This document shows positions 12,800 through 55,430 of a stretch of 64,000 bases of DNA, piece after piece; the first letter of the stretch is position 1; every line of letters begins with the position of its first letter. The stretch is from Sutcliffiella sp. FSL R7-0096 (GTDB lineage: Bacteria > Bacillota > Bacilli > Bacillales > Bacillaceae_I). Below the pieces are notes generated by a model. It worked only from the letters and a program-made list of their open reading frames with translations, was not told the origin of the DNA and did no database searches. The position numbers and the translations under genes were made by a program. The DNA is taken from the NCBI RefSeq assembly GCF_038595065.1, contig NZ_CP152003.1:1468001-1532000 (forward strand). The letters run 5' to 3'.

Positions 12800-12912
12800 T
12801 GTTCGATTACGTTCCGGTGGTTTGCTTTCCGCGGGGCGGAGCTTGAGCATCCTCACAACGCTTTAGGGGGCTACCTCCCGCCGGAGTCAAACGACCTGCA
12901 CTACAAGGAACA
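12800..12912 (-). repeat. Dispersed structured repeat, copy 1
   Basis: Reads in the minus direction: GACTCCGGCGGGAGG, then AGCGTTGTGAGGATGCTC, then CGCCCCGCGGAAAGC. The inner arms GTTTG and CAAAC are complementary, as are the outermost TGTTC and GAACA. It sits between yitT and the convergent DUF3813-like gene. Confidence 0.75.
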
Positions 12913-12948
12913 AGGGATTAACGATGCTAGTAGAACCATCTATATGTA

Positions 12949-12985
12949 CAAAAACAGCGCATAGCCTAATGGCCGTGCGCTGTTT
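12949..12985 (-). terminator. Terminator of the DUF3813-like gene
   Basis: AAACAGCGCATAGCC pairs with GGCCGTGCGCTGTTT; on the minus strand a T run follows. Confidence 0.65.
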
Positions 12986-12990
12986 GCGTG

Positions 12991-13227
12991 TTACTTATCT
13001 TGCTGACTGTTGAAAAGTTCTTCCTGCAATTCCCTAAGCTGAACTTTTTCGGCTTCAGTGGAGTTTGCATAAGCGGAGGATAATGCGTTTTTGGCAACAC
13101 TCATCGAATTCGAATCGACTTCCGATGAATAATCATGTGTGTTGTTATGTTCAGGTGCAGAATCATGCTTGCCCTTTACCGCATTTTTGACGGCTTCACG
13201 AGCGGATTGGAATAATTGGTTTCCCAT
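12991..13227 (-). CDS. Small DUF3813-like protein (YitR-like)
   Basis: A 78-residue hydrophilic protein starting MGNQLFQSAREAVKNAVKG and rich in S, N, E and A, with no membrane segment. Its N-terminus and its position near yitS/yitT suggest the DUF3813 family to which B. subtilis YitR belongs; its function is unknown. It starts three bases after the stop of the upstream small gene, so the two form a unit. Confidence 0.6.
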   Translation of the reverse strand: MGNQLFQSAREAVKNAVKGKHDSAPEHNNTHDYSSEVDSNSMSVAKNALSSAYANSTEAEKVQLRELQEELFNSQQDK

Positions 13228-13229
13228 GA

Positions 13230-13382
13230 TTATATCCCTCCAAGAGAATTGAGTTCTGCTTGATGTGCTTTGCGCTCTTCTGCTTGTTCCATCGTCAAGT
13301 GATAAGGGATTTGTTGGTCATGAAGCTGTACAGAATTTTTACCCTGCTGAACAAAACGTTTTGATTTGCTGCTTCTACCCAT
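13230..13382 (-). CDS. Small basic hypothetical protein
   Basis: A 50-residue polar protein (MGRSSKSKRFVQQGKNSVQ...). I do not recognise a family. ATG 13382 follows an AAAAGGGGGGG ribosome site at eight bases, better than the longer frame from 13412. It is just upstream of the DUF3813-like gene with a two-base gap, implying co-expression. The basic N-terminus and small size recall Bacillus spore-associated small proteins, but that is only an impression. Confidence 0.6.
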   Translation of the reverse strand: MGRSSKSKRFVQQGKNSVQLHDQQIPYHLTMEQAEERKAHQAELNSLGGI

Positions 13383-13472
13383 TATGAAAGCCCCCCTTTT
13401 CAAATCGGACAATCACTTGCCCACTATGTAGTCTAAGTAAAAAAGGTTCTTTCTATAAGGGCAAATATTGGT

Positions 13473-14282
13473 CTAAAGGTTCAGCTTTTTCTCTAGGAAC
13501 ACGGCAATTCCATCTTCTTCATTGCTTAGCGTGATTTCATTGGCTTTGCCTTTCAGCCCATCGATGGCATTGCCCATGGCAACACCAGTTCCTGCATACT
13601 CAATCATTTCATAATCGTTATCCTCGTCACCAAAAGCGATGATATTTTCCTTTGGAATATTATAATGCGCGGCGACCCTTTTTAATCCAACGGCTTTGTT
13701 CATTCCTGTGCGAACAAGCTCAATGACATGCCAAGGTGCAGCCCAACGTCTGTGATCGATCACTTCGGCATGTACGTCAGATAAGTACTTCCTGATTTTT
13801 GGCACTTCTTCTTCGCTTGCATGGATAAGGATACATGTTGGATCCCTTTTTAACACTTGTCTAAGATCACCTGTTTCAATCTTTGGGTTGCCAAAGCCGA
13901 AGATATCCAATAGCTTTTCATCATGAAAATGAAAATAAACATCATCCATCACTTCGGCCAGGATATTATGTATTTTGTATTTTTCGCTTACTTCGATGAT
14001 TTCTTTTACTGTATCAATGGAAAGGGGCTCATGATAAACTCCCCAATCATCATTGCCAGGATAATGCACAAATGCACCGTTAAAGTTCACGATGGGAGAA
14101 GTAAGGTTCATTTCTTCATAATACATGATGCTCGCACGGTAAGGTCTTCCGGTCGCTATTACTACCTCATGTCCTTGATCCATCGCTTTTTGAATAGCCA
14201 ATTTGTTGCGTTTGGAGATTCTTTTGTCATCAGTTAGCAAAGTCCCGTCTAAGTCTACGGCAATCAGATGTTTTTCCACCAT
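13473..14282 (-). CDS. yitU: Cof-type HAD phosphatase (YitU)
   Basis: A 269-residue HAD-superfamily hydrolase of the Cof/IIB subfamily. Motif I is VDLDGTLLTDD with two aspartates, motif II ATGRP, the conserved lysine lies in GMNKAVGLKRV, and motif IV is FGDEDND near the C-terminus; the cap domain lies between about 85 and 190. Such enzymes dephosphorylate small phosphorylated metabolites (FMN precursors, sugar phosphates) in the cytoplasm. The name YitU rests on synteny with yitT and yitV. Confidence 0.85.
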   Translation of the reverse strand: MVEKHLIAVDLDGTLLTDDKRISKRNKLAIQKAMDQGHEVVIATGRPYRASIMYYEEMNLTSPIVNFNGAFVHYPGNDDWGVYHEPLSIDTVKEIIEVSEKYKIHNILAEVMDDVYFHFHDEKLLDIFGFGNPKIETGDLRQVLKRDPTCILIHASEEEVPKIRKYLSDVHAEVIDHRRWAAPWHVIELVRTGMNKAVGLKRVAAHYNIPKENIIAFGDEDNDYEMIEYAGTGVAMGNAIDGLKGKANEITLSNEEDGIAVFLEKKLNL

Positions 14283-14423
14283 ATCATAACTCCTTTTTTC
14301 CTACATAAAAAATATTCCTATTTCAAGTGTAACCTTTTTTAATTTTGCTTGTCTACATGATAAACTAGACAGGACTAGATTGAATAGGAAAAATGAGGTA
14401 AAAATAGGTCAGGGGGAAGTACA

Positions 14424-15236
14424 ATGATTAATGTTGTCAAACAGAAAGCGGGAGCGGTTTCTTATCTTCATGTCTGTGATGCACAATCCTTTTCAAAAGC
14501 GAAACCTACTGTTATCTTTATACATGGGTTTCAAAGTGTGAAGGAGAATAATCTGCACTATGCCTACCTTTTAGCAGAAAAGGGATTTCGGGTAATCCTT
14601 CCAGACTGTATTCATCATGGAGATCGGGACAGCGGGCTGAAGAATCACGAAATGATGCAGGCGTTCTGGGAAATTGTCATCCAAACTGTCCATGAAATAG
14701 ATATTCTAAAAGGATATCTGGTTGAAGCAGGTTTAACGAAGGAGACGGATATCGGTATTGCAGGTACTTCCATGGGTGGAATTGTGACTTTCGGTGCATT
14801 GAAAAGATATCCGTGGATAAAAGCGGCAGTCAGTTTGATGGGATGTCCAAATTATCGTGACTTTGCACGTTATAAAGTTGATAAATTCCTTGAAGCTGGA
14901 TTTGTGTTACCTTTTGATGAAATGCAGTTAGAATCATACTTTGCAAAACTAGATCCATATGATTTAGCCAACGATCCAGCCACCCTAAATGAAAGACCTT
15001 TGTTATGTTGGCACGGAAAACAGGACAAAGAGGTTCCGATTGATCCGCTACTGACGTTTGTAAAAGCGAATAAGGGTTATTATAAAAGTAAACCGAATAA
15101 TATTAAGGTACTCATAGATGAGCATTCTGATCATAAGGTAAGCAGGGAAGGTGTATTGGCCACCGTGGATTGGTTTGCAGAGTATCTTCTAGAAAGTGAA
15201 AAGGAGAGATATCATGCAGGAAGCACTAAAAGATAA
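14424..15236 (+). CDS. yitV: Alpha/beta-hydrolase esterase (YitV)
   Basis: A 270-residue serine hydrolase with oxyanion-loop motif IHGFQSVKENN, nucleophile elbow GTSMGG (about residue 117) and a late DEHSDHKVS segment supplying the histidine. Full length for the YitV family of putative cytoplasmic esterases. AGGGGGAAG precedes the ATG. Its last 23 bases overlap the start of yitW, which indicates translational coupling to the iron-sulfur-related gene. Confidence 0.85.
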   Translation: MINVVKQKAGAVSYLHVCDAQSFSKAKPTVIFIHGFQSVKENNLHYAYLLAEKGFRVILPDCIHHGDRDSGLKNHEMMQAFWEIVIQTVHEIDILKGYLVEAGLTKETDIGIAGTSMGGIVTFGALKRYPWIKAAVSLMGCPNYRDFARYKVDKFLEAGFVLPFDEMQLESYFAKLDPYDLANDPATLNERPLLCWHGKQDKEVPIDPLLTFVKANKGYYKSKPNNIKVLIDEHSDHKVSREGVLATVDWFAEYLLESEKERYHAGSTKR

Positions 15237-15525
15237 AGTGATGGAAATATTAGAGGAAGTGGAGGATCCGGAGCTTGGTGTCGATATAGTAAACCTTGGT
15301 CTGGTATATGATGTGGAAATTGATGCATCCAACAATGTGGATATTACCATGACATTGACCTCCATTGGCTGTCCGCTTGCAGGGGAAATTGTCGAGGACG
15401 TCAAAAAAAAGCTTGCACCAATGGAAGAAATCAATGATGTGGACGTTAACATCACGTTCAACCCGCCATGGAGCAAAGACCGAATGTCCCGCCTTGCAAA
15501 AATTGCATTGAACGTTACAGATTAA
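15214..15525 (+). CDS. yitW: MIP18/PaaD-like iron-sulfur assembly protein (YitW)
   Basis: A 103-residue DUF59-domain protein: DPELGVDIVNLGLVYDVEID and TMTLTSIGCPLAGEIVEDV, with the conserved cysteine, then FNPPWSKDRMS. This is the SufT/PaaD-like family that assists maturation of iron-sulfur proteins. I start at ATG 15214, seven bases after AAGGAGAG; the frame continues upstream to 15196 inside yitV without its own ribosome site. It overlaps yitV by 23 bases. Confidence 0.88.
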   Translation: MQEALKDKVMEILEEVEDPELGVDIVNLGLVYDVEIDASNNVDITMTLTSIGCPLAGEIVEDVKKKLAPMEEINDVDVNITFNPPWSKDRMSRLAKIALNVTD

Positions 15526-15560
15526 AAAATACATAAAAGAGTGAGAGGGGAGAAAGAAGC

Positions 15561-15899
15561 ATGAAAAACAAAGTGATTCTTGTCAGTTCCAATCGGCTAG
15601 GTAAAGGGGATGAAGCCTTAGGGGAAAGTGTCCTGGAAACATTTTTCACTATTCTGAAGCAACGTGAAGAAAAGCCAGCTGCAATTTTTCTTATGAATAC
15701 AGGAGTCTACACATTGACAGAGGATTCACTTGTTTCCGTGCACCTGAAAGAGATTCATGAATCAGGTGTCCATGTCTATGCATGCAAGACATGCGTAGAC
15801 CACTATGAAGTCGAACAGAGGCTTATTGGCGGCGAAATTAGCGGGATGAAACACTTCATTGATCTTGCAACAAAGCATGAAGTCCTGACAATTGCTTAA
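15561..15899 (+). CDS. DsrE/YedF-like sulfur-relay protein
   Basis: A 112-residue DsrE-fold protein (VILVSSNRLGKGDEALGESVLETFF ... IFLMNTGVYTL ... YACKTCVDHYEVEQRL). It corresponds to the C-terminal domain of YedF, which in other bacteria is fused to a TusA-like domain and linked to selenium or sulfur metabolism. Here the TusA part is absent. A CKTC pair (about residue 78) could carry a persulfide. It lies 35 bases after yitW with a GAGAGGGGAG ribosome site and probably shares its transcript. Confidence 0.75.
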   Translation: MKNKVILVSSNRLGKGDEALGESVLETFFTILKQREEKPAAIFLMNTGVYTLTEDSLVSVHLKEIHESGVHVYACKTCVDHYEVEQRLIGGEISGMKHFIDLATKHEVLTIA

Positions 15900-16036
15900 T
15901 AATGGATTCCCCACCGAACCTTAGATACGGTCATGAAAACCCCATATTTGGGAATGATAGTAGTGAGATATAAAGATCTCAATGCACATACTGTCTGCCT
16001 AAATGGTATATCATGATCTGTATAGGAGGGAATCGT

Positions 16037-16216
16037 ATGGGCCAGAATCAACAATTCAGACCGGGACAAAAAGCGCCTAATAACGGCATCTATTTGGAAA
16101 TCGGGGAGACTGGCAGTGGTGTTAAGAATCCTCAGAAGGTCAACCTGAAAGCTGGGGACACATTTCCCGAAACCTCCAATCATAACCGACTTTGGGCAAA
16201 GAAACGCCGTCCGTAA
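16037..16216 (+). CDS. yjzC: YjzC-family small protein
   Basis: A 59-residue basic, glycine/proline-rich protein with FRPGQKAPNNGIYLEIGETG and VNLKAGDTFPET, as in the conserved YjzC family of Bacillus, whose function is unknown. ATG 16037 follows ATAGGAGGG at six bases. A strong terminator follows. Confidence 0.8.
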   Translation: MGQNQQFRPGQKAPNNGIYLEIGETGSGVKNPQKVNLKAGDTFPETSNHNRLWAKKRRP

Positions 16217-16223
16217 TTGATAA

Positions 16224-16255
16224 GGTCATCCTCTTACTGGAGGGTGGCTTTTTTG
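16224..16255 (+). terminator. Terminator of yjzC
   Basis: GTCATCCTC pairs with GGAGGGTGGC (wobbles), then TTTTTT. Confidence 0.65.
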
Positions 16256-16408
16256 GATAGACTTGATGGAAACTTTTTTTAGAGTTGATTCGTAAAGAGA
16301 TATGAAGAAAAAATTAACCAGGAATGTGTATGATCCCCAAGCTCAAGATTTGGGCTAACCAAAGAATCGTTCTAAAATAAACTCACCTACCAAAAGGAGT
16401 GATACTAA

Positions 16409-19000
16409 ATGAACATCAACCAAATGACTACCAAGTTACAAGAAGCAATCGTAATGGCAAAGAGTCTTGCGGAAGAAATGAATCATCAGCAAATAGAGCA
16501 TGAACACCTTCTTCAAGCATTGCTTCAGCAACATGAAGGACTTGCCGAAAGAGTGTTGCAAAAGCTGAAGGTAGATCATCAATCACTTCAAAATGACTTA
16601 AAGCATCTACTTAGAGCAAAGCCTGAAGTAAGCGGCGCAACAAGTGATGCATATATAAGCAATCAACTGAACCAAACTTTCAAAAAAGCTGATGAATGGA
16701 AAAATGAATGGGAGGATGATTTTCTCTCCGTCGAACATATTCTTCTTGCTCTTTTCCATCAAAACAGCACGAGCCATCAATTAAAAAAGTTAAGTAATAC
16801 ATACAATCTCAATGAAGCATATTTACAGCAAGCCATACAGGAAATAAGGGGGAACCAGAAAGTGACTTCTAAAGAACCGGAATCTACATACGAAGCGTTA
16901 AAGAAATATGGAAGGGACTTGATTGAAGAGGTGAAAAGCGGCAAGCTTGATCCGGTTATCGGTAGAGATCAGGAAATCCGCAGGGTAATCAGAATCCTCT
17001 CCAGAAAGACAAAGAACAACCCTGTCCTTATCGGTGAACCAGGTGTTGGAAAAACGGCTATAGTGGAAGGATTGGCGCAGCGTATCGTGAGGAAGGATGT
17101 TCCAGATGGACTTAAGGACAAAACAATATTCTCCCTTGATCTTAGCTCGCTGGTGGCAGGCGCCAAATACAGGGGGGAGTTTGAAGAAAGATTGAAAGCC
17201 GTTCTGCAGGAAATCAAAAAAAGTGAAGGGCAGATCCTGCTTTTCATTGATGAACTTCACACAATTGTGGGTGCCGGTAAGACGGAAGGTTCAATGGATG
17301 CAGGGAATATGCTCAAACCGATGCTTGCCCGTGGGGAACTGCACTGCATTGGGGCCACTACCTTAAATGAGCACAGACAATATATCGAAAAAGATCCGGC
17401 TTTGGAGCGCCGTTTCCAACAGGTTCTTGTCCAAGAACCGACGGTAGAGGACACCATTTCCATTTTAAGAGGCCTTAAAGACCGCTTTGAGATCCATCAT
17501 GGTGTGAACATACATGACCGTGCCATCGTATCTGCCGCAGTTTTATCCAACCGGTACATTTCAGAACGTTTTTTACCGGATAAGGCAATTGACCTTGTGG
17601 ACGAAGCATGTGCCATGATCCGAACGGAAATAGATTCAATGCCATCTGAATTGGATGAAGTGACGAGAAGGGTGATGCAGCTGGAAATTGAAGAAGCTGC
17701 CATGAAGAAAGAGAAGGATCAAGCAAGCAAAGAAAGACTCATTCAGCTCCAAAAAGAATTGGCCAATCTCAAAGAACAGGCTGCCGCTATGAAGGCTCAA
17801 TGGCAGCTGGAGAAAGATGATATTCAATTAGTCAGAGTGAAACGGGAGGAGTTGGAGAAGTCCAAGCGTGATTTGGAAACGGCGGAAAACAATTATGATT
17901 TAAACAAAGCCGCAGAACTTAGGCATGGAAAAATACCAAGCCTTGAAAAAGAGCTATCACAATTGGAGGAAAAGGCTAAGCAGAAAAAAGAAACAAACCA
18001 GCTCCTACGCGAAGAGGTAACAGAAGAAGAAATTGCTGGCATTGTGGCAAAGTGGACAGGCATACCTGTTACAAAGCTTGTGGAAGGAGAAAGAGAAAAG
18101 CTATTGAAGCTGGAGGAAATCCTGCATGAAAGAGTTGTAGGGCAGGAAGAAGCAGTACAGCTTGTTTCCGAGGCGGTCATCCGTGCAAGAGCAGGTATCA
18201 AGGATCCAAATCGTCCGATCGGTTCCTTCATCTTTCTTGGACCTACAGGTGTCGGGAAAACAGAGCTTGCCAGAGCGCTTGCTCAATCCCTTTTTGATAG
18301 TGAGGAGCAGATTATCCGGATTGACATGTCCGAGTATATGGAGAAACACGCGGTATCAAGGCTGATCGGAGCGCCCCCAGGGTATGTTGGCTACGAAGAA
18401 GGGGGGCAGCTTACAGAAGCGGTAAGAAGGAAGCCATATTCCGTCGTCTTGTTGGATGAAGTGGAAAAAGCCCATCCGGAAGTATTTAATATCCTGCTAC
18501 AAATGTTGGATGATGGCAGAATAACGGACGCACAAGGAAAGACGGTCGATTTTAAAAATACTGTTATCATCATGACCTCCAACATCGGTTCACCCATCTT
18601 ACTGGAAAATACGGAGGATGTCATTTCGGAGGAAGCTAAAGAAAAAGTGCTTCAACAGTTACGAAATCATTTCAGACCTGAATTATTAAACCGGATTGAT
18701 GATACTGTTATCTTTTCACCATTATCCAAAAATCAGATCGGTCTTATTGTGGAAAAGTTAATCAAGGATTTACAGAAACGATTAGAAGACAAGCACCTAA
18801 CATTACATCTTACAGAAGATGCGAAGATCTTTATTGCTGACAATGCCTATGATCCTGTTTATGGAGCCAGACCGTTGAAGAGGTTCATTCAAAAACACAT
18901 GGAAACCCTTATTGCAAAGGAAATAATAAAAGGTACCATCCAAGATTTTCAAGAAATAATTATCAAGGTGAAAGAAGGAAAACTCGTGATCGGTGACTAA
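16409..19000 (+). CDS. clpB: Disaggregating chaperone ClpB
   Basis: An 863-residue AAA+ protein that, with DnaK, pulls polypeptides out of aggregates. It has the double-repeat Clp N domain (about 1-145), the first AAA module with Walker A GEPGVGKT (about 209), a long coiled-coil middle domain (about 400-530) that separates ClpB from ClpA/ClpC, the second AAA module with GPTGVGKT (about 611), and the arginine finger and D2-small domain up to 860. It lacks the IGF/IGL loop expected of ClpP partners as far as I can see. AAAAGGAGTG precedes the ATG. I see neither a CIRCE element nor a clear CtsR heptad repeat in the 150 bases upstream. B. subtilis lacks clpB, so its presence separates this genome from that species. 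Confidence 0.95.
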
Positions 19001-19012
19001 TAAATATAAAGA

Positions 19013-19053
19013 CAAAAAAAAGAACTTGTCCCTGGGGAGCAAGTTCTTTTTTC
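19013..19053. terminator. Bidirectional terminator between clpB and yjzD
   Basis: AAGAACTTG and CAAGTTCTT form a stem flanked by A and T runs, serving the two convergent genes. Confidence 0.75.
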
Positions 19054-19058
19054 AGATA

Positions 19059-19241
19059 TTAGTGCTTTTCAACGGGTTCGTTTGGTAACGCTTCCCCGAT
19101 CAGCATGACTAATACAGCAAAAACGACCGCAATGATAGAAGCTAATACGTAGTTATATGTATCACCCTGCATGTTAGCAACAACATAAGCAACCATGTTT
19201 ATAAGAAGAAGTGACCAGAAAATAGTCCAGAATGCGCGCAT
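19059..19241 (-). CDS. yjzD: YjzD-family small membrane protein
   Basis: A 60-residue protein with two predicted membrane segments (about 5-22 and 31-51) and a short polar tail, matching YjzD (DUF2929) of Bacillus. A GGAGGGGGAG ribosome site lies before the ATG. Function unknown; the position beside yjaU fits B. subtilis synteny. Confidence 0.8.
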   Translation of the reverse strand: MRAFWTIFWSLLLINMVAYVVANMQGDTYNYVLASIIAVVFAVLVMLIGEALPNEPVEKH

Positions 19242-19355
19242 TGTGACTCCCCCTCCATTTAATTATTTCGAAACTCATTCAGAGGATATTTTACCACAAC
19301 TAGCACATATAATAAATGTAAATATGTTTAACTTAGTCGAAAAAGGGGTTGTTAA

Positions 19356-19493
19356 ATGATGAATAGTAATGAAAAGCTTCTTGAACTGAAAATGCTACTT
19401 GATCAAGAGGTAAGTAATTTGACGGAACTAGGGCAACGGACTTTGGAGATGTTAAGGGAAGAGCTTCAATACGATGAAGTGGGAAGGGATTAA
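19356..19493 (+). CDS. Small hypothetical protein with helical character
   Basis: A 45-residue, leucine- and glutamate-rich frame (MMNSNEKLLELKMLLDQEV...) with an AAAAGGGG ribosome site 8-12 bases before ATG 19356/19359. It would form one or two amphipathic helices. I considered a Spo0E-like phosphatase because of the size, but the SQxxD signature is absent. I do not recognise a family; the ribosome site and clean frame make it a plausible gene. Confidence 0.5.
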   Translation: MMNSNEKLLELKMLLDQEVSNLTELGQRTLEMLREELQYDEVGRD

Positions 19494-19535
19494 ATTTGCA
19501 CCTTCCTTTTTCTTATTACATTAAACTTCCCGTAG

Positions 19536-19650
19536 TCTTCCGTTTCAGGTGTTCTGCTTTCCGCGGGGCGAGTGGTTGAGCCTCCTCACAACGCTTCAGG
19601 GGTCTCAACCTACCGCCGGAGTCTCACACCTTGCATTCAGACCACAGGGG
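19536..19650 (-). repeat. Dispersed structured repeat, copy 2
   Basis: Minus-direction copy with inner arms AGGTGT/ACACCT and central arms GGTTGAG/CTCAACC around GCGTTGTGAGGAGG. It fills the gap before yjaU. Confidence 0.8.
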
Positions 19651-19767
19651 GATTGGATCTTCAAATTTCATACTAATTTTTTATTGTCGCATTTGGTAAT
19701 TTGTCTTTGGCATCACAATGCCTATCTACATAGCATAGAGTATAGAGTTCGTGAATTGGAGGGTATG

Positions 19768-20517
19768 GTGAATCGGATGAGCATAAATCAACGCTTTTTT
19801 CAAATGGGCGGTCAATGGAATGCTGTACATGTACCGGAAAAGCCTAATGGTTTTGGCTGTCTTATCATCGGGGATACTAACCATTTCGTTGATGAACAGA
19901 ATAGTCTGTGGTTACAGCATATTGGTCGGAACAGAATTGTGGAAGAAATATTGAAATGTGGGTATACACTTTTTTATTCCAATCTTTACGGGGCGCATTG
20001 GGGGAGCAGTAAATCGGTACTGCATGCCAAGCAGCTTTATCATATCATGATGAAACAGGAAATATTGAACGATAAAATTCATATTATTGCAGAAGGTATG
20101 GGGGCGCTGACAGCACTGCAATTGATGGAGGAACTAGGGGAACAAATTCGTTCGGTCGCCCTCATCAATCCTTGTATGGACTTGAAAGCCCAACTGGCTC
20201 AAGAAAAAGATAGGAAATTTTTCTATAAAAAAGTCAGGAATGAGATAGCGAAGGCTTACAATGTACCTATTAATGAATTTGAGGAGTATGAAGGTTTTCC
20301 CGAACTCCATCGGTTCCAGCATAATTCGTTGCCGGTGAAAATATGGCAAACCACAACCAATTTCTCCTTTGACCCAAATCTTCATTGCAAAAGGTATGAA
20401 GAGCTTCGCCAACAAAATAAATCCCCAATTGCGGTTACCTATCACCTTGTGGAGAAAAGGTATTCATACGGTCCATCTATATGTCAGTTCTTTAAAAAAT
20501 ATGAACAGAAATTATGA
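19768..20517 (+). CDS. yjaU: Alpha/beta-hydrolase-like protein (YjaU)
   Basis: About 250 residues with an alpha/beta-hydrolase pattern: LIIGDTNHF, LFYSNLYGAHWGS, and IIAEGMGALTALQLMEEL, where the nucleophile elbow reads EGMGA instead of GxSxG, so the catalytic serine appears to be replaced. This suggests a non-enzymatic or divergent member. The open frame extends upstream to 19549 but that part runs into repeat copy 2; GGAGG at 19758-19762 supports GTG 19768 (or ATG 19765 or 19777). Position before yjaV, med and comZ matches yjaU of B. subtilis. Confidence 0.7.
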   Translation: MNRMSINQRFFQMGGQWNAVHVPEKPNGFGCLIIGDTNHFVDEQNSLWLQHIGRNRIVEEILKCGYTLFYSNLYGAHWGSSKSVLHAKQLYHIMMKQEILNDKIHIIAEGMGALTALQLMEELGEQIRSVALINPCMDLKAQLAQEKDRKFFYKKVRNEIAKAYNVPINEFEEYEGFPELHRFQHNSLPVKIWQTTTNFSFDPNLHCKRYEELRQQNKSPIAVTYHLVEKRYSYGPSICQFFKKYEQKL

Positions 20518-20520
20518 AAA

Positions 20521-20558
20521 GTCCCATTTCATCTCTCATGGAATAGGGACTATTATTA
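20521..20558 (+). terminator. Hairpin after yjaU, weak terminator
   Basis: GTCCC-ATTtCAT pairs with ATGgAATaGGGAC, followed by TATTATTAT, not a true T run. Confidence 0.35.
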
Positions 20559-20611
20559 TGCTTCCATGCATAAGGATACAATATCAATGATGATGGATGG
20601 AGTGGAAAGTG

Positions 20612-21376: not shown

Positions 21377-21517
21377 AAGACAACAGAGAATCCCTCTCGT
21401 GTCCAAATGGTTTTTACAGAATATTAACTTTTCCTTTGTATTCAAAGCATGTACAATATAAGATGTAGGATAGGAAATATGAGGGATTCCTTTGGGGCAC
21501 TAGGGGGTGGTACATAC

Positions 21518-22727: not shown

Positions 22728-22754
22728 TTCATCGTAATGATTGCAGTAACTTAG

Positions 22755-22878
22755 CTGATGATTGGAGCGAAAGGAAAGACTGCAGCGAAAGGTAGCGGCA
22801 GGTTGAGACCCCCGAGCGTTGTGAGGAGGCTCAAGCACCGCCCCGCGGAAAGCAAAGTCTGACGAAGAAATCAACAGC
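22755..22878 (+). repeat. Dispersed structured repeat, copy 3
   Basis: Plus-direction copy. Inner arms AGACT/AGTCT, central arms TTGAG/CTCAA, and a conserved GAGCGTTGTGAGGAGG. Lies between comZ and the convergent yjzB. Confidence 0.8.
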
Positions 22879-22900
22879 GGTGCTACATTAAGTTAAGTTC

Positions 22901-23311: not shown

Positions 23312-23335
23312 AATTGATAATAAAATTAGATAAGT

Positions 23336-23462
23336 GGATTGAAGCGGAAGGCACTCGACTCCGGCGGGAGGTAAGAGGGAATCGGGAGACCCCGCAGGCT
23401 TGCCGAGGAGGCTCCCGGCCCTCCCCGAGGAAAGCGAGTGCATGTAGCGGAAAGAAACGGCC
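23336..23462 (+). repeat. Dispersed structured repeat, copy 4, inside the fabH leader
   Basis: Plus-direction copy with inner arms GCACTCG/CGAGTGC and central arms CGGGAG/CTCCCG. It ends 70 bases before the fabH start codon and would be transcribed in the sense direction. Confidence 0.8.
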
Positions 23463-23532
23463 AAACTATAAAGCTAAAACCACTTTAGATAATCTTTTAA
23501 AAAAGTCCAAAAGAGAGATAGGTGTTATATCT

Positions 23533-34844: not shown

Positions 34845-34881
34845 AAAAGCTGTCAGATTTTATCAGTCTGACAGCTTTTTT
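34845..34881. terminator. Bidirectional terminator between yjbA and trpS
   Basis: AAAAGCTGTCAGA and TCTGACAGCTTTT form a 13-base stem with A and T runs on both sides of two convergent genes. Confidence 0.75.
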
Positions 34882-34887: not shown

Positions 34888-36066
<1,179 letters not shown>

Positions 36067-36089
36067 ACCATACTTACTATAAATCCGAT

Positions 36090-36335
36090 AAAAATATAAA
36101 AAGGCCCATTCATCCCTAAAAAAAGGGACGAATGGACCGTGGTACCACCCTTATTATTTCATACAAAATATTGCAGAAATCACTTAACCTTGTAACGTAA
36201 GGATACGTCACAGCCTACTGATATACGGTTCAGCCGTGAAGCTCAGAAGTCCATTCCTAAACGATAGTTGTTTGTTCCCACCAACCACAAACTCTCTATA
36301 AACTATGCTGTTTAGTACTACTCTTCATCATTGCT
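36090..36335 (-). ncRNA. Tryptophan T-box leader of trpS
   Basis: On the minus strand there is an AGAGAG-type stem I start with GTTGGTG, the specifier region GAA-TGG-AC with the Trp codon TGG at 36253-36251, the T-box core AAGGGTGGTACCACGG (around 36152-36137), and a terminator stem (36137-36103, CCATTCGTCCCT with AGGGATGAATGG) followed by a T-rich run. Uncharged tRNA-Trp would pair with specifier and T-box, stabilise the antiterminator and allow read-through into trpS. Confidence 0.9.
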
Positions 36336-36358
36336 TATAAATTAATAAATATTCTCCT

Positions 36359-45977: not shown

Positions 45978-45981
45978 AAGT

Positions 45982-45997: not shown

Positions 45998-46015
45998 AAT
46001 AAAGTGAAGGTTATT

Positions 46016-46031
46016 AGTTGTTTAAACAAGT
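46016..46031. promoter_or_regulatory. MarR-type operator C
   Basis: AGTTGTTTAAACAAGT, a 15 of 16 match to the palindrome; the core TTGTTTAAACAA is perfect. Confidence 0.6.
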
Positions 46032-46093
46032 ATTTTTTCAAATATTTCTATGAAGTTAAAAATATAGTTTGGCCTATTTTTTTTGATCTTAAT

Positions 46094-46108
46094 TGAGAAT
46101 GATTATCT
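46094..46108. promoter_or_regulatory. Fur box before the siderophore importer
   Basis: TGAGAATGATTATCT matches the 7-1-7 Fur consensus TGATAATNATTATCA at 13 positions, 32 bases before the first gene. Iron repression is expected. Confidence 0.75.
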
Positions 46109-46140
46109 ATTTCAAATACAATGTTAGGAAGGAACACATA

Positions 46141-48043: not shown

Positions 48044-48789
48044 AGAATCTTACGAAAAGCTATGGAAACAAAAAAGTGGTGGATCAGGTTAGCACTACAG
48101 TGAAGAAGGGGCGCATCACTTCCTTTATTGGACCAAACGGGGCAGGTAAAAGCACCTTGTTGTCCATGATGAGCAGATTAATAGAAATGGACTCCGGTGA
48201 AGTGTACTTAGATGGAGAAGATATTGTTAAGCAAAAAAGCAATATCTTGGCGAAGAAGTTATCCATTTTGAAACAGTCTAACCATATGCCAATTCGTTTG
48301 ACCATAAGGGAGCTTGTCAGTTTCGGAAGGTTTCCCCATTCACAAGGGAACCTCACGGCAGAAGATTGGAGAGAGGTAGATGGAGCAATTGCTTACATGC
48401 AACTGGAAAAAATGCAGCATAAGTTTTTGGACCAGTTAAGTGGAGGGCAAAAGCAAAGGGCGTTCATTGCCATGGTGATTGCGCAGAACACAGAATATAT
48501 CCTATTGGATGAGCCGTTGAATAATCTGGATATGAAGCATTCGGTTCAGATAATGAAAGTACTGAGAAAGCTCGTTGATGAAACGGGAAAGACCGTTATC
48601 ATCGTTATCCATGATATTAACTTCGCATCTGTTTATTCCGACTATATTGTGGCTTTGAAAAATGGAAAATTAGTAAAGCAAGGTAAAACAGAGGATATCA
48701 TCAAAGAAGACGTTTTAAAGGAAATCTATGATATTGATATTATAGTGAAAGAAATAGACGGAAAAAATATCTGTATCTATTTTTCATAA
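48031..48789 (+). CDS. Iron-siderophore ABC ATPase, YclP-like
   Basis: A 252-residue FepC-type ATPase with GPNGAGKST, LSGGQKQRAFIAMV and LLDEPLNNLD. AAAGGAG precedes ATG 48031, which overlaps the previous gene by 13 bases. Drives the YclNO-like permease. Confidence 0.9.
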   Translation: MVEVKNLTKSYGNKKVVDQVSTTVKKGRITSFIGPNGAGKSTLLSMMSRLIEMDSGEVYLDGEDIVKQKSNILAKKLSILKQSNHMPIRLTIRELVSFGRFPHSQGNLTAEDWREVDGAIAYMQLEKMQHKFLDQLSGGQKQRAFIAMVIAQNTEYILLDEPLNNLDMKHSVQIMKVLRKLVDETGKTVIIVIHDINFASVYSDYIVALKNGKLVKQGKTEDIIKEDVLKEIYDIDIIVKEIDGKNICIYFS

Positions 48790-48801
48790 GGAGGAGAGAC
48801 G

Positions 48802-48920
48802 ATGCTAACCTACAGGAATGCTATCCCTTGATGAATTTTTCCAGAACTGGCGCCACCTTTTTGTGGAAGGAGAAGAACGGAAGCAAAAGGGAGTTCAAGA
48901 GAAAAGTAATCAGTATTAGC
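48802..48920 (+). pseudogene. Possible frameshifted small gene between ATPase and binding protein
   Basis: A strong ribosome site AAGGAGGAGAG precedes ATG 48802, which encodes only MLTYRNAIP before a stop. Shifting by one base near 48823 continues as SLDEFFQNWRHLFVEGEERK and on to a stop near 48920. Together they read like one protein of about 40 residues broken by a single-base indel. No family recognised. Confidence 0.35.
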
Positions 48921-48950
48921 GTTATCCAACTATATCATGAGGTGAGGAAA

Positions 48951-49919
48951 ATGAAGAAAAACCTATCCATATTATTTTTAGCTTTCTTATTGTCTTTAGT
49001 TGCTGCTGCATGCGGTGCAAATAATAATGCAACAAGTGGATCCGAAAATGCTTCAGCAGAAGCGAAAACTACTGGGAATACAGAAAAAATGACTATCGAA
49101 CATCAATTAGGAAAGACAGATATTACGAAATCCCCTGAAAACGTCATTGTGTTTGATTTCGGAATATTGGATTCCTTGGACAAATTGGGAGTGAATGTTT
49201 TAGGAGTGCCTCAAGCGAACATACCTCCTTACTTATCAAAATATGAAGACGCAACGTATGAGAATGTGGGAAGTTTGAAAGAGCCTGATTTTGAGAAAAT
49301 ACATTCACTTGACCCAGAGTTAATCATAATTTCCGGTAGACAAGCGGATTCGTATGAGGAGCTCTCAAAAATAGCTCCAACTATCTTCATGGGAGTAGAT
49401 ACAAATAACTATCTTCCATCGTACAAGGAAAATATGGCATTGCTTGGTGAGATTTTCAATAAAGAGTCCGAAGTTGCTGGAGAGTTGGCGAAAGTAGAAA
49501 AATCCATTGAAGATCTAAAATCCAAAGCAAGTGCCTCCGGGAAGAAGGCATTGATTGTTCTTGCCAATGAAGGGAATATAAGTGCATATGGTCCCGGTTC
49601 CCGTTTTGGAATCATCCATGATGAGTTTGGATTAACCCCAGTGGATGACGGGATAGAAGTGTCAACGCATGGCCAAAATGTTTCCTTCGAATACATTCTT
49701 GAAAAGAACCCTGATTACTTATTTGTCATTGACAGGGGAGCTGCAGTAGAAGGGGAATCGAGTGCAAAAGCGTTATTGGATAATGATATTATCAATCAGA
49801 TTAATGCAAGTAAAGAGGATAACATTGTGTATCTAGATCCTAACTATTGGTACTTATCAGGTGGAGGGCTCATTTCTGTTTCGGAAATGGTCAAAGAAAT
49901 CGAGTCCAGCTTGGAATAA
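48951..49919 (+). CDS. Iron-siderophore-binding lipoprotein, YclQ-like
   Basis: A 322-residue lipoprotein: signal ending AAAC, T/N/A-rich linker, then the class III binding fold (VIVFDFGILDSLDKLGVNVLGVP, LDPELIIISGRQ, GPGSRFGIIHDEFGL, GGGLISVSEMVKEIE). It is close in style to YclQ, which binds petrobactin and its precursors. ATG 48951 follows GAGGTGAGG; the open frame reaches 48828 but that part overlaps the broken small gene. The ligand is inferred from similarity only. Confidence 0.87.
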   Translation: MKKNLSILFLAFLLSLVAAACGANNNATSGSENASAEAKTTGNTEKMTIEHQLGKTDITKSPENVIVFDFGILDSLDKLGVNVLGVPQANIPPYLSKYEDATYENVGSLKEPDFEKIHSLDPELIIISGRQADSYEELSKIAPTIFMGVDTNNYLPSYKENMALLGEIFNKESEVAGELAKVEKSIEDLKSKASASGKKALIVLANEGNISAYGPGSRFGIIHDEFGLTPVDDGIEVSTHGQNVSFEYILEKNPDYLFVIDRGAAVEGESSAKALLDNDIINQINASKEDNIVYLDPNYWYLSGGGLISVSEMVKEIESSLE

Positions 49920-49956
49920 TTGTGACAAAACCATACAGTATCTAGATGATAGAGAA

Positions 49957-50006
49957 AAAGAAACTCCACCGGCTAGCAACTACTAGTAAGGGTGGAGTTT
50001 CTTCTA
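49957..50006. terminator. Bidirectional terminator between yclQ-like and GDSL genes
   Basis: AAGAAACTCCACC pairs perfectly with GGTGGAGTTTCTT around a 20-base loop. Confidence 0.7.
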
Positions 50007-50735
50007 TTCTTGGTTATTATCGTAAGCTTTTTTCATCAACTGTGTAATCTCGGTATAGCCTCTATCATTCGGATGGATGTCATCTGTTGAGATATGTGTC
50101 CACTCCAATGCATTCCCCGTGAACGTATCATAGGGATCAATTACCAGTGTTTTTTCTTCCTCTGCATATTCCTCGATAAAGCCATTAAACAATGGTGCGT
50201 ACTTTGCTCCAAGATCCGTCAGTTCATGTCCATCAGGATAGGGATTGTAAAGTCCTAGTAAGATGATGGTTGCATCAGGGTTCAATTCCCGTAGCAGCTT
50301 GTATGTTTCTTGATAGGTTCTTTTCAGTATTTCCATTCGAAGGTTGAGTGCTGACTCATCTTCCCCCTCCGGTACAGAGCGGATGGTCTGCAGAAAATCA
50401 TTGCCACCTATGGAAACAGATATGACTCCAGCTGTTTTTAATCGGTTTTGCAATGCTTCATCCGCAGTAAGCAGTGTAAGTAATCCGGGGGAAGAAAGGC
50501 CTGGTATTCCATAATTCTCAACAGTGACATTGTGGTCTTCACGCAAATATTTCGTGAACTGAGGTACAAATCCGTGCATGCGTAAATGATTCTCCTCAGA
50601 AGACCCAAGCCCTGCAGTCAATGAATCCCCTATGGCGATGTAAATGATTTGCTTAGGGGATTCCGCTATCGCGGGAGGGTAGATAAGAAAGCTTGAAACG
50701 AGCAGTAATATAGTTAAACTCCATTTTTTCAGCAT
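50004..50735 (-). CDS. Secreted GDSL/SGNH esterase-lipase
   Basis: A 243-residue secreted hydrolase (signal peptide about 1-25) with block I AIGDSLTAGLG, block III SIGGNDFL and block V DDIHPNDRGY, so the Ser-Asp-His set is complete. It resembles Bacillus YpmR-like SGNH hydrolases that act on esters or lipids outside the cell. Two starts: ATG 50744 abuts AGGGAGAGG, ATG 50735 is nine bases after it and preferred. It lies 15 bases after the RND pump gene on the same strand, so it may be the third gene of that operon. Confidence 0.8.
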   Translation of the reverse strand: MLKKWSLTILLLVSSFLIYPPAIAESPKQIIYIAIGDSLTAGLGSSEENHLRMHGFVPQFTKYLREDHNVTVENYGIPGLSSPGLLTLLTADEALQNRLKTAGVISVSIGGNDFLQTIRSVPEGEDESALNLRMEILKRTYQETYKLLRELNPDATIILLGLYNPYPDGHELTDLGAKYAPLFNGFIEEYAEEEKTLVIDPYDTFTGNALEWTHISTDDIHPNDRGYTEITQLMKKAYDNNQE

Positions 50736-50759
50736 GTTCTTCATCCTCTCCCTGGTTTG

Positions 50760-53700
50760 TTACACATCAAGCTTTTCCAACTTCTTCTGCCTTCTTTTTT
50801 CCTTAAACGAATCAAATAAATAATAAACGACCGGTATCAATATCAACGTGATGATGGTTGCAAAACTTAATCCGAATACAATAACGATTGCCATCGGCTG
50901 CTGGATCTCCATCCCTTCCCCGAAACCAAGGGTTAACGGAATGAGGCCGAGTATGGTTGTCAGGGCGGTCATGAAAATTGGTCGCAAACGAGTTGGACCT
51001 GCGATAAGTATAGCTTCCCAAGTTGATTTGCCGTCCCTTTTCATCATATTCACATAGTCAACGAATACGATGGCATTATTGACGACTATCCCTGTAAGTA
51101 TGAGCATCCCCACGAGTGAGCCGACACCGAGTGGCTGGGAGGTGACAAGCAGGCCAAAGATGATTCCAATAATGGTTAACGGTACTGCAAACATGATGAT
51201 GAATGGATAGAAATACGACTCGAACTGGCCGGCCATCACCATATATACAAGTACGACGGCCAGTGCCAATGCGCCTCCAAGCTTGAAGAAAGCGTCATTC
51301 ATCTGTTCATCTTGTCCACCGATCGTGATTTTATATTGGTTGTTTGGGATATAAATGTTTTCTTTCAAGGTTTTTTCTACATCATCAATGACACTTCCAA
51401 GGTCACGATTGACGATGTCGGCATTGACTGTAATTTCACGGTTCCGGTTCGTTCTGGATATCTGGCTTGGACCTTGACCTCTTTCTACCGTCGCAACAGC
51501 TTGAAGGGGAATGTTTTCTCCTGTCGGTGTATTGATCAACAGCTTTTCCAGGTCCTCAATCGAAGCCGTATAAGTGTCTTCGATGGTCAAGCGTATATCT
51601 AATTCTGCTCCATCTCGGGCCATTCTCGTTGCAACCAAACCTTTCGTGGCGCTAGAGACGGCTGAGGCGATCTGTCCGCTACCAATACCAAACTGGCTGG
51701 CTTTCACCCGGTCAATATCCACGACTATTTCGGGGTTGCCCTCCGTATAATTTGACGTTGGCTCACGGATTCCTTCTATTTCAGATAAAAGATTGACCGT
51801 ATCGTCTGCTAAAGACTTAAGAGTGGTCAAATCCGGACCGGTTATACTTAAGGATACAGGGTTTTGGGAGAAACCCGAGTCACCGGAGGAAAGGCGAATT
51901 TCTGCTCCCGGAATATTTTCAAGCTTTTTCCTAATTTCATCCCCTATGATTTTATCCGAACGACTACGCTCTGTTACCGGTGTTAAAAGAATACTGTAAT
52001 TAGCTCGGTTTGTCTGTGTCCCTGCTGAAACGGAGAAGTTGTCTGTTCCACCGACCGTGACAAAAGCAAGGTCAATTTCAGAGATCTCTTCCAATCTTTC
52101 ATCAATTTCTTCCATGACATCATAGGTGGCATCAAGGGAACTACCATCCGGTAATCGTACGGTCATGGAAATGAAGCTCTGATCCTGTTGTGGCAAGAAT
52201 TCTTTACCGATGAATGGAATGCCCGCCAAGGAAATCAGGAAAAGGATAATGATAGAGGTTACTGTTTTCTTCGGATTTCTTAATGTTTTTTCCAAAATAG
52301 AACGATACCAATTGGTAAAGCCTGAAAACCGTTCTTCAAATCGGGATGTACTTGTGTTCACTTTTAATAAAAGTGAAGAGAACAAAGGTACAATAATCAA
52401 TGCTGTAAACAAGGACGCAAGCAAAGAGAACGAAACCACTAAGGCCAATGGCTTGAACAGCTGAGCGGCCAAACCATCCACAAATACGATAGGAAGGAAC
52501 ACGATAACCGTAGTCAGAGTCGAAGCAATGATGGCAGGCCCGACCTCACTTGTCCCTTCAATGGCTGCATCCTTCATGGTATAGCCTTTTTGCCGCAGTC
52601 GATAAATATTTTCGAGAATGACGATGGCGTTATCCACCATCATACCAATTCCAAGTGCAAGTCCACCCAGAGTTAATAAATTTAAAGTTTGACCACTGAA
52701 GTACATGAAAATAAACGTAGCGACAATGGAAACAGGAATCGAAAATAAAATGATCAAGGTACTGCGGATATTTCTTAAAAAGAAGAATAGAACCAAAGCT
52801 GCAAGCAAACTACCAACAATCATATTGGTTGCTACTGCACGAATGGATTTCTCGATAAATTCACTTTGATCAAATATTGGTTTGATATCCACCCCTGGAG
52901 GAAGTGTCTTCCTGATTTCATCAAGTTTCTTCTCAATATTGTTTGCAACTGTCACTGTGTTACTTCCCGACTGCTTCAGGATGGACATCCCTACAGCCGG
53001 TTCCCCGTTCAAATAACTGAGCTGGGAGGTCGGCTGCAACGTTTCCTTCACTTCCCCGAGCTGATCGAGCTGGATGACTCCTTTGGAAGTAGGGATGGGA
53101 AGTGTTTGAATATCAAGGATGGATTGATATTCACCAGTAATCCTGATCGGCAGGTTCTGATTCTGATCTGTCAGAGATCCGCCAGGCAGGTTTAAGTTTT
53201 CGGAAGCGATGATTTGCTGTAACTGATCTATGGTAATGTCAAAGGAAGACAAGGCATTGGGGTCCAAGGTGATCCTTACCTCATTTTCAGCGCCACCTTC
53301 CACAGAAATGGAGGCAATGCCATCCACGCTGCTCAATTGAGGTTCTATATCCTGTTCTGCCAATTGCTTTGCCTTTGTCATTTCCCCGGAAGGATCGGTT
53401 ATGGCAAGCTGCACGATTGGAAGGTCGCTTGGATTAAAGCGAAGGACCCTTGGGAGATTCGCACCAGGAGGCAGAAAGTCCCTGACTGAATCAATGCGCT
53501 CACGCATATCTAACGATGCAAAATCCATGTCCGTCCCCCAGGTGAAGGAGACGAGTACAAGCGAACCTCCTGTACGGGAAATGGATGTGACAGATTCCAC
53601 ATTAGGGAGAGTGCTCATGGCGTCCTCCAGTGGAGAGGAAATCAGATTTTCTATTTCCTCGGGCCCAGCCCCCTCATAGGTGGTGGTGACCGCTACGATC

Positions 53701-53828
53701 GGAAACGTCAGTTCCGGAAACAAATCGACCGGCATCCCGCGCATGCTGACCGCGCCGAGAATTAACATAAGTATAATCACCATTGACATGGCAATGGGAC
53801 GTAATACGGAAAGCCTCGCTATTTTCAT
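50760..53828 (-). CDS. RND-family efflux pump (SwrC/YerP-like)
   Basis: A 1022-residue transporter of the HAE1/AcrB type with 12 membrane segments and two large external loops. TM4 carries GLALGIGMMVDNAIVILENI with the proton-relay aspartates, and the repeat in the second half reads LILTGIVVNNAIVFVDYV. In B. subtilis the single close relative SwrC (YerP) exports surfactin. The start ATG 53828 is nine bases after the stop of the adaptor gene, without a strong ribosome site, so translation is probably coupled. Substrate unknown. Confidence 0.88.
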   Translation of the reverse strand: MKIARLSVLRPIAMSMVIILMLILGAVSMRGMPVDLFPELTFPIVAVTTTYEGAGPEEIENLISSPLEDAMSTLPNVESVTSISRTGGSLVLVSFTWGTDMDFASLDMRERIDSVRDFLPPGANLPRVLRFNPSDLPIVQLAITDPSGEMTKAKQLAEQDIEPQLSSVDGIASISVEGGAENEVRITLDPNALSSFDITIDQLQQIIASENLNLPGGSLTDQNQNLPIRITGEYQSILDIQTLPIPTSKGVIQLDQLGEVKETLQPTSQLSYLNGEPAVGMSILKQSGSNTVTVANNIEKKLDEIRKTLPPGVDIKPIFDQSEFIEKSIRAVATNMIVGSLLAALVLFFFLRNIRSTLIILFSIPVSIVATFIFMYFSGQTLNLLTLGGLALGIGMMVDNAIVILENIYRLRQKGYTMKDAAIEGTSEVGPAIIASTLTTVIVFLPIVFVDGLAAQLFKPLALVVSFSLLASLFTALIIVPLFSSLLLKVNTSTSRFEERFSGFTNWYRSILEKTLRNPKKTVTSIIILFLISLAGIPFIGKEFLPQQDQSFISMTVRLPDGSSLDATYDVMEEIDERLEEISEIDLAFVTVGGTDNFSVSAGTQTNRANYSILLTPVTERSRSDKIIGDEIRKKLENIPGAEIRLSSGDSGFSQNPVSLSITGPDLTTLKSLADDTVNLLSEIEGIREPTSNYTEGNPEIVVDIDRVKASQFGIGSGQIASAVSSATKGLVATRMARDGAELDIRLTIEDTYTASIEDLEKLLINTPTGENIPLQAVATVERGQGPSQISRTNRNREITVNADIVNRDLGSVIDDVEKTLKENIYIPNNQYKITIGGQDEQMNDAFFKLGGALALAVVLVYMVMAGQFESYFYPFIIMFAVPLTIIGIIFGLLVTSQPLGVGSLVGMLILTGIVVNNAIVFVDYVNMMKRDGKSTWEAILIAGPTRLRPIFMTALTTILGLIPLTLGFGEGMEIQQPMAIVIVFGLSFATIITLILIPVVYYLFDSFKEKRRQKKLEKLDV

Positions 53829-53837
53829 TTATTAGGT

Positions 53838-55058
53838 TCACTCACTTTGTTCTGATATTTCAGCACCGTCTTTTAAGCGTTCTTTTCCATTAACTGCTAC
53901 TGTCTGACCTTTTTTCAGACCTTCAATAATTTGCATATATTCATTGTCTCTAAAGCCTGTGGTTACATCTTGTCTTACTGCTTTGCCTTCTTCAATGATA
54001 TAAACATATGAATTGGTTTCTTCATATAAAATGGCATCCATCGGGACGACCGTCTGTGCTTCAAGATTATCCACCGCGACAAATGCTGTTGCCCTCATGC
54101 CGCCTTTAATGGCTGACTCGGTATTGCTGATCGGTACTGTAACAGAAAACATATTGGTCTGTTGGTTTACTGTAGGCGAGACCGTTTCGATTTTTGATTC
54201 AAACGTCTCTGCAAGCCCTTCAAAAGAAATCGTTGCATCCTGACCAGCCTTCAACTTGCTTACTTGGTAGCTGTTCACTTGGAAGGTTGCTGCAATGGTG
54301 TCTAATTGAATAATCGTACCAATTGGCACATTAGGGGAAGCAATACCATCAGCGACGACATTCAGTTCTGAGACAATACCATCTATCGGACTAGTGATGG
54401 AGGTGGCATCCGCCATCTGCTGCGCCTGTTTCAAACCTTGTCGGGCCTGGTTCAATTGTGCTTCCATTTCCATAGTATTAAACGTAGGTATTTGTTGGAC
54501 CTGGCTTGCTGCATTCGCAAGCTGAGCCTGTTTCACCATTACATCAACTGTACTTTGCACCAGATCAAGTGAAGTGACGGCGCCTGTATCCACACCATCC
54601 AGAAGCGCTTGAGATTTTTCTAAACTTTGGTTTAATTCTTCTTGTAACTTGGGTATATCAGAAAGAGAGGCCTGATTCTCAGCTGCCTGCTGTACTTCTT
54701 TCATTTTAGAAAGGGCATTTTCTAATTCTGTCACTGCACTCTGAGCTTGATTCACCTGCTCGGTTGCGGCTTCAGAATCCAATGAAACAATCAAATCGCC
54801 CTTTTTTACTATATCACCAATTTTTACATGAACAGATTCAACGGTAAGGGGGGAGGTAGTTAGGAGTGGTACTTGTGTTTCCGGTACAGCCAGTCCCACC
54901 AACTCAATGGTATTGCTGATGTTCTTTTCCGTCACTTCAGCAACTGTAACCGGGATTTTATTGGTCTCTGTATTCTGGCTTGTAATCTCTTTCTGACTGC
55001 AAGCGGTTGAAAATAAGAGCACGAACATAGCTGGAAGCAGCCAATACTTTTTCAACAT
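53838..55058 (-). CDS. RND efflux adaptor lipoprotein (membrane-fusion protein)
   Basis: A 406-residue adaptor: lipobox STAC (about C20), biotinyl-lipoyl halves (VESVHVKIGDIVKKGDLIVSLD and ATSITSPIDGIVSELNV), a coiled-coil hairpin rich in Q, A and E (about 95-205), and a beta-barrel C-terminus (GMRATAFVAVDN). It would connect to the RND pump encoded downstream on the same strand. In Gram-positives such adaptors are lipid-anchored outside the membrane. First gene of a pump operon. Confidence 0.87.
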   Translation of the reverse strand: MLKKYWLLPAMFVLLFSTACSQKEITSQNTETNKIPVTVAEVTEKNISNTIELVGLAVPETQVPLLTTSPLTVESVHVKIGDIVKKGDLIVSLDSEAATEQVNQAQSAVTELENALSKMKEVQQAAENQASLSDIPKLQEELNQSLEKSQALLDGVDTGAVTSLDLVQSTVDVMVKQAQLANAASQVQQIPTFNTMEMEAQLNQARQGLKQAQQMADATSITSPIDGIVSELNVVADGIASPNVPIGTIIQLDTIAATFQVNSYQVSKLKAGQDATISFEGLAETFESKIETVSPTVNQQTNMFSVTVPISNTESAIKGGMRATAFVAVDNLEAQTVVPMDAILYEETNSYVYIIEEGKAVRQDVTTGFRDNEYMQIIEGLKKGQTVAVNGKERLKDGAEISEQSE

Positions 55059-55298
55059 ATATCACCTCATACTTATCTTGTCTAAATATAAAACTAACAT
55101 GTATTACAAACCCTTACAATTACTAACTATCGGACGGTATTCGAAAGCGTTCAATTGTTACTACTTTGTGAACATACAAAAAAAGAATGAGGACTGACTT
55201 CATTTTTATGAAACTTTCAAGGACAACCAAACGTCTGTATATATGTAAGGCAAGCAGTAAGTAAAATTAGTAAAATATTTAAATGGTCTATAAGAATT

Positions 55299-55430
55299 CC
55301 CCTTTAGATTGTAGTGCAAGGTGTGAGACTCCTGAGGGAGATAGCGGTAGCTTGAGACCCCCGAGCGAAGTGAGGAGGCTCAAGCACCGCCCCTAGGAAA
55401 GCGAACACCTGGAACGGAAATCTAAAGGGA
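55299..55430 (+). repeat. Dispersed structured repeat, copy 6
   Basis: Plus-direction copy with an 11-base outer stem CCCTTTAGATT/AATCTAAAGGG, inner arms AGGTGT/ACACCT, central arms GCTTGAG/CTCAAGC and loop GCGAAGTGAGGAGG. Lies between the RND operon and spxA. Confidence 0.85.

Follow-up and report, generated by a model that had tools for sequence, protein, structure and literature searches.

A dispersed rod-like hairpin of Bacillales genomes as a probable module of IS1182-family transposons and their miniature derivatives

A 64,000-nucleotide stretch of Sutcliffiella sp. FSL R7-0096 (NZ_CP152003.1, positions 1,468,001 to 1,532,000; hereafter the window) carries a dispersed GC-rich repeat whose arms diverge in sequence while their pairing is kept, which raises the question of whether the repeat is a structured RNA used by its host or a piece of mobile DNA. 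The initial annotation, made from the sequence without database searches, had listed six intergenic copies and read their compensatory changes as the mark of a structured RNA family with a fold under selection. Single-sequence folds and alignment agree that the repeat is an unbranched, interrupted, rod-like hairpin of about 130 nt with five helices (hereafter the rod). From sequence comparisons, we propose that the rod is probably a module of hairpin-targeting IS1182-family transposons of the Bacillales and of their transposase-less derivatives (miniature inverted-repeat transposable elements, MITEs), together with the residue of such elements. The earlier interpretation is only partly supported: a structured RNA family whose covariation proves selection on the fold is not supported as stated, and much of the family is mobile, as seen from the hairpin duplications, the empty site, the several end types, the nesting and the rod-carrying IS1182 transposons described below.

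Copies were detected with a covariance model (R1) built from 38 own-genome copies, namely 37 of the 51 collected and the window copy at 22751; twelve near-identical type-3 copies, L008 and a deletion variant in L010 were left out. By this model the genome, a single 4.9-Mb contig, holds at least 150 rod copies (150 of 1116 first-look candidates were scored, and all 150 match R1 with E values no higher than 1.2e-14). A 13-base core occurs 157 times genome-wide, against once for its reversed control; among the 51 core matches inspected, L005 and L017 resemble coding sequence rather than rods. Rough sorting of 110 distinct own-genome matches by arm sequence gave 38 copies of type 1, 42 of type 2 and 30 of type 3, and since the crude rule considers the first bases, a few copies are misfiled.

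Duplicated hairpins and transposase-bearing carriers

Type-3 rods are carried by a MITE about 210 bp long with imperfect terminal inverted repeats (CAGTGTGTAGACAAAG/TTTGTCAACAGTCTG), and a second group, type 1b, ends in GGCCACTGAAAAA; MITEs of both groups measure about 210-220 bp when whole and, judged by size, have no coding capacity. For the 36 type-3 copies with both ends found (L055, an artefact of negative length, was left out), direct repeats scoring at least 12 (median 22) flank the element in 36/36, versus 1/202 swapped-flank controls. These repeats are 12-34 bp long and are mostly terminator-like hairpins duplicated whole, 31 of the 36 folding alone at -3 kcal/mol or below. By sequence, the elements sit at hairpins, as IS1272 does. 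Comparison with the sister genome G013 confirmed the duplication by an empty site, the first of two that are empty in the window and filled in G013 (Table 1). At the first (59688), G013 holds a type-3 MITE with the hairpin of about 26 bp on both sides; at the second (34845), the hairpin duplicate has diverged, as in an older case.

Type-1b MITEs often lie inside the tip of another rod, where they duplicate GGCGTAGCC or CAACGAAG (tips of 8-9 bp, judged by eye). Of 18 paired-end candidates, some of which are due to chance (e.g., window 2075, within a gene), nine fall in rod tips by a strict motif, and L056 and L101 were added by eye. A third MITE group has the ends GGCTTTGTTAAA and mostly 8-bp repeats; by eye, the 8-bp repeat of six such elements is perfect in three, has a one-base mismatch in two and is absent from one.

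Transposase-bearing relatives of these elements were identified outside the window genome, where PF13751 matches occur in 23/41 genomes. Two elements of about 1.86 kb, L268 (G014) and L269 (G013), have exact type-1b ends and encode an IS1182-family transposase in an open frame (NF033551 scores of 358.9 and 355.6 bits, cut-off 270). In each, a rod (108 and 121 bits, respectively) lies antisense to the transposase gene, between its start and one end of the element, with a further hairpin between; by eye, both elements have inserted into the tip of a rod. An element from another family of the order, L258, reads by eye as an IS1182 copy with an internal deletion; it has type-3-like ends, a hairpin in duplicate and, in the same place as in L268 and L269, a rod with quite different arms. 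L254 (NF033551, 482.7 bits) and L255 are of IS1182 type too and likewise combine type-3-like ends with a duplicated hairpin, but R1 detected no rod in either; the ends of L254, L255 and L258 show 1-2 mismatches. Autonomous partners with matching ends are thus present in relatives, not in the own genome, and 3/30 PF13751 loci in relatives have an internal rod that precedes the transposase gene and runs antisense to it. L053, considered as an autonomous type-3 parent, was rejected, as its open frames show no transposase by eye. The own genome also contains a 633-bp relic with 1b ends (L093, 2077-2710), whose end away from the rod resembles the end of L269 by eye.

How such elements might move can be outlined. 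The transposase would recognise an extruded hairpin and cut at its base, so that insertions would fall where they do no harm, and one inside another. The arms would diverge with pairing kept because the folded shape matters to the active transposon as target, shield or transposase regulator, and for the rod's role within the transposon we infer that of shield, regulator or landing pad. Many solo rods would be decaying descendants, and a few were perhaps retained by the host. A more far-reaching version, which we regard as doubtful, holds that the rod is a landing pad borne by transposons, a fold common to Bacillales transposons with different ends that attracts later insertions to its own tip, so that copies would nest harmlessly, and that solo rods in leaders such as those of trpS and spx have become host regulators.

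IS1272, a member of the IS1182 family, has been reported to target terminator hairpins, making a blunt cut that deletes part of the hairpin and leaves no duplication (PMC4923244), and according to a 2015 review cited in that paper, palindromic sequences are the target of some members of the IS1182 family. The rod elements share with IS1272/TnSha1 of staphylococci the transposase family (NF033551) and terminator hairpins targeted by shape, not sequence. In contrast to the blunt, duplication-free insertion of IS1272, the rod elements duplicate the hairpin, and their carriers contain an internal rod, which goes unmentioned for IS1272 in the parts of PMC4923244 cited here. Whole-hairpin duplication and the internal rod, as seen here, appear to set these elements apart from IS1272 as described.

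Structured interiors are known for some bacterial MITEs. Like bcr1 of the B. cereus group, RUP, NEMIS and ERIC (PMC3733652) and BOX (PMC3049150), rod elements are short, non-coding, dispersed, mostly intergenic and non-autonomous. Unlike those MITEs, as far as the cited parts of these sources describe them, the rod elements have a fold common to at least three end types and to transposase-bearing transposons, spread over 20/26 genera, and the rod itself serves as target of the next insertion. Repetitive extragenic palindromes (REP) and bacterial interspersed mosaic elements (BIME), associated with the REP-associated tyrosine transposase (RAYT), are also palindromic, intergenic and present in high copy number, as rods are; rods differ from them in size, fold, ends and transposase class. 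We found no earlier description of the repeat in the open literature, although it may have been described elsewhere, and literature searches with the literal sequences returned papers on other subjects only. The proposed assignment would give a home to a high-copy GC-rich repeat of many Bacillales genomes by linking it to a transposon family that reads DNA shape. In addition, whole-hairpin duplication and insertion into the elements' own rod make the target choice of hairpin-seeking transposases directly testable.

Several results weigh against this assignment. A profile search found no PF13751 gene in the window genome, where the relic L093 is the only noticed trace of a longer copy. Among the 30 PF13751 loci of relatives, 26 have no rod match and L267 has a partial one; several of the 26 are fragments cut off by a contig end or differ in their own ends. 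For the GGCTTTGTTAAA-ended MITEs no transposase was found, ISL3 having been tried. Neither terminal inverted repeats nor target duplications were found for type-2 rods, the copy at 55298 included: direct flank repeats were detected in 4/38 type-2 copies, two of which belong to a tandem array and two of which are misfiled type-3 copies, and inverted flanks in 1/38, itself misfiled. Type-1 copies gave direct flank repeats in 0/32 and inverted flanks in 3/32. Since type-2 rods show no such ends or duplications, the IS1182 link of five of the six window copies rests on shared fold and sequence. Finally, the retention of a rod near spx and the occupancy of the trpS leader, described below, could mean a host function.

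Fold and covariation of the rod

Near its base the rod has a two-pair step between two 3x3 loops, mostly GNA/GNA, and further in it has the conserved unpaired letters GAGAC and GGAAAGCGAA. RNAalifold gave a partial consensus on the MAFFT alignment of the 38 R1 copies (A1) and a weak one on the set of 51 own-genome copies, and the structure was therefore set by hand from single-sequence folds. In A1, 84.9% of the 1512 pair cells hold standard pairs, 26/42 pairs are changed on both sides, and the covariation score is 0.216, versus 0.108 for shuffles and 0.037-0.063 for slid registers, which places it above all 500 shuffles.

Because the hand-set structure was derived from the same sequences on which pairing was first counted, we made a stricter, tree-based test in which substitutions were reshuffled along branches and a G statistic with average-product correction was used (an R-scape-like script of our own, not R-scape). 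The test was applied to 116 of 150 copies from own and related genomes, after dropping those more than 90% identical, in an alignment fitted to the model. Seven column pairs reached significance at E 0.05; six belong to the fold and the seventh is adjacent to it. When column rates were kept, four pairs were significant, all within the fold. Half of the top 40 covarying pairs (20) were in the fold as well. In an unfitted alignment, of 67 copies, only one pair was significant, and it agrees with the fold. The comparison with Rfam 15 yielded no family at threshold on any rod, the window giving T-box and RsaE hits alone at gathering threshold, and four rod-bearing loci searched at a relaxed threshold (E up to 1) had no match.

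The earlier proposal of a conserved fold thus holds, and covariation is real among paralogous and orthologous copies; selection on the fold is not proved by it. A large part of the family is mobile, and the fold could also act at the level of DNA. In mobile copies, covariation may come from constraint within an active transposon, from exchange between copies or from repair of imperfect palindromes. The case warns against taking compensatory change in dispersed repeats as a sure sign of a host regulatory RNA.

Orthologous sites and rival explanations

A rival explanation is that rods are a structured RNA used by the host: they would be transcribed in leaders and between genes and act on mRNA through processing, stability or attenuation, with mobility explaining their spread only. 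The block of clpB, fabH, trpS and spx is syntenic throughout the genus, and a rod lies upstream of spx in the same orientation in 7/10 same-genus genomes (G000, G013, G002, G008, G001, G014 and G003). At this site a degenerate, rod-like remnant can be made out by eye in G010, and no rod was found in same-genus G015 and G011 or in same-family G016 and G017. In the seven species, 98.0% of 293 cells pair and 6/42 pairs are changed on both sides, and further pair types, alone among five measures, were not raised (255 of 500 shuffles). In the trpS leader, a rod follows the T-box in 11/16 same-genus genomes; the leaders of the other five and of two same-family genomes are without one. Together with the conserved internal-loop letters, these two sites argue for host use, which is possible at a few sites.

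Gene orientation adds to this. Going by the gene calls of a simple scorer of our own, 38/52 type-1 and type-2 copies between co-directional genes lie on the same strand as their neighbours (p=0.0012), so that for these types together the relation to neighbouring genes is not random, as the initial annotation would have it for a functional RNA. By type, the same-strand share is 21/26 for type 1, 17/26 for type 2 (p=0.17) and 9/14 for type 3. This agreement leaves room for an effect at the RNA level, and may reflect insertion bias, selection or an RNA role. On the other side, the trpS leader rods have no fixed direction (six point with trpS, five the other way) and, by eye, differ in their flanks. 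At the fabH and spx-downstream sites, sister species have lost the copy or kept half of it. The fabH gap holds a type-1 rod in five species (G007, G009, G008, G004 and G012), partly deleted in three, with a different rod in the window genome and none in G013; downstream of spx, three related species have full rods, and G000 and G013 have a half-copy. Type 3 is found mostly at gene ends (14/28 between convergent genes), between duplicated hairpins. On balance, we consider a host RNA unlikely as the general explanation.

Slightly less likely still is that the covariation arose by mutation, template switching perfecting the palindromes and exchange between copies swapping blocks, in mobile DNA that is otherwise inert. 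In favour of this, the rod is a long imperfect palindrome, partners for exchange are available in tandem arrays and nested copies, and the inner-helix changes at the spx site are partly in blocks common to other copies (by eye, alignment A4), which suggests that some exchange between copies has taken place. However, internal loops, which such repair would remove, are conserved across types, and the fold is kept in L258 despite its different arms.

That another system, RAYT/REP-like or a different transposase, moved the repeats and that IS1182 is a secondary passenger carrier is very improbable, for although type-2 rods are without ends and duplications and one rod-MITE group has other ends and 8-bp repeats, the sole Y1 transposase gene adjoins other palindromes, the 26 ISL3 loci searched lack a rod, and the rod has the same place within IS1182 elements of two families. 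A RAYT/REP origin was rejected on locus L041, which has no R1 match; its Y1_Tnp (RAYT-like) gene at about 1500-1830 has a different palindrome, GGGTCTGACCCC, nearby. ISL3 was likewise set aside as carrier of the GGCTTTGTTAAA-ended copies, as the ends mismatch and no rod was found in the 26/30 loci searched (PF01610, 12/41 genomes; L293, L302, L303 and L309 lay outside the R1 search).

Window copies, spread and further observations

Table 1. Rods, rod fragments and empty insertion sites in the window (empty-site positions were counted by hand from the alignment; bits are R1 scores)
Feature	Position	Strand	R1 (bits)	Context
Rod, filed as type 2	12796..12917	-	79.3	Flanking genes convergent
Rod, filed as type 2	19527..19651	-	84.3	3' of clpB (downstream)
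Rod, filed as type 1	22751..22880	+	103.2	Flanking genes convergent
Rod, filed as type 2	23328..23463	+	99.7	Upstream of fabH; absent from sister genome G013
Rod, filed as type 2	35937..36070	+	95.3	trpS leader, after T-box; antisense to trpS
Rod, filed as type 2	55298..55430	+	147.6	Upstream of spx; orthologous in 7 species
Type-1 rod remnant, 58 bp, outer helices only	9584..9641	-	37.2	
Half-copy, by eye	56093..56142	+	no match	Downstream of spx
Terminator-like hairpin, empty site	59688..59713	+		Filled in G013 by type-3 MITE (R1 match L241 17007-17143)
Terminator-like hairpin, empty site	34845..34881	+		Filled in G013 by rod element (R1 match L224 16300-16430)

The six copies first noted are real, within a few bases of where they had been placed, and match R1 at E 2.1e-18 to 2.3e-36, all six having belonged to its training set. 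Their arm sequences are present as quoted, both orientations occur, and within the window all copies are intergenic by the gene calls mentioned above; the remnant at 9584 and the half-copy at 56093 had been overlooked. The word GTGAGGAGG occurs five times in the window, versus 0.30 expected, and four of the five occurrences are inside rods.

The impression that similar repeats are common among related genomes was borne out, with rods in 35/41 genomes and 20/26 genera of the order. Rods also occur in 13 plasmid records: in the three plasmid regions inspected (H12, H8 and H1) ordinary genes adjoin the rod, and in the one from Paenibacillus a Tn3 transposase lies about 3 kb from it. On plasmids of B. 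subtilis and Paenibacillus urinalis, a pentose-phosphate gene cluster contains a partial rod (L141 and L142, 3501-3580), with gnd on one side and a hypothetical gene on the other. Three tandem rods with a 166-bp period are found at G000:C1:3190505-3190970 (L065), and other same-genus species also have tandem rod arrays (L116 1501-2130; G009:C87:84481-85439). Some rods have extra sequence inserted in the GACTCC loop (L224 17525-17657, L080 near 2936, and the trpS leader of G004, L230 near 17630); the insert is probably a further nested mobile piece.

Two known RNAs accompany the rods in the window. The T-box leader of trpS lies at 36121-36340 (-) with 158 bits, the rod being between the T-box terminator and the start codon. 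The RsaE/RoxS small RNA (Rfam RF01820) is encoded at 63313-63431 (+) with 92.7 bits.

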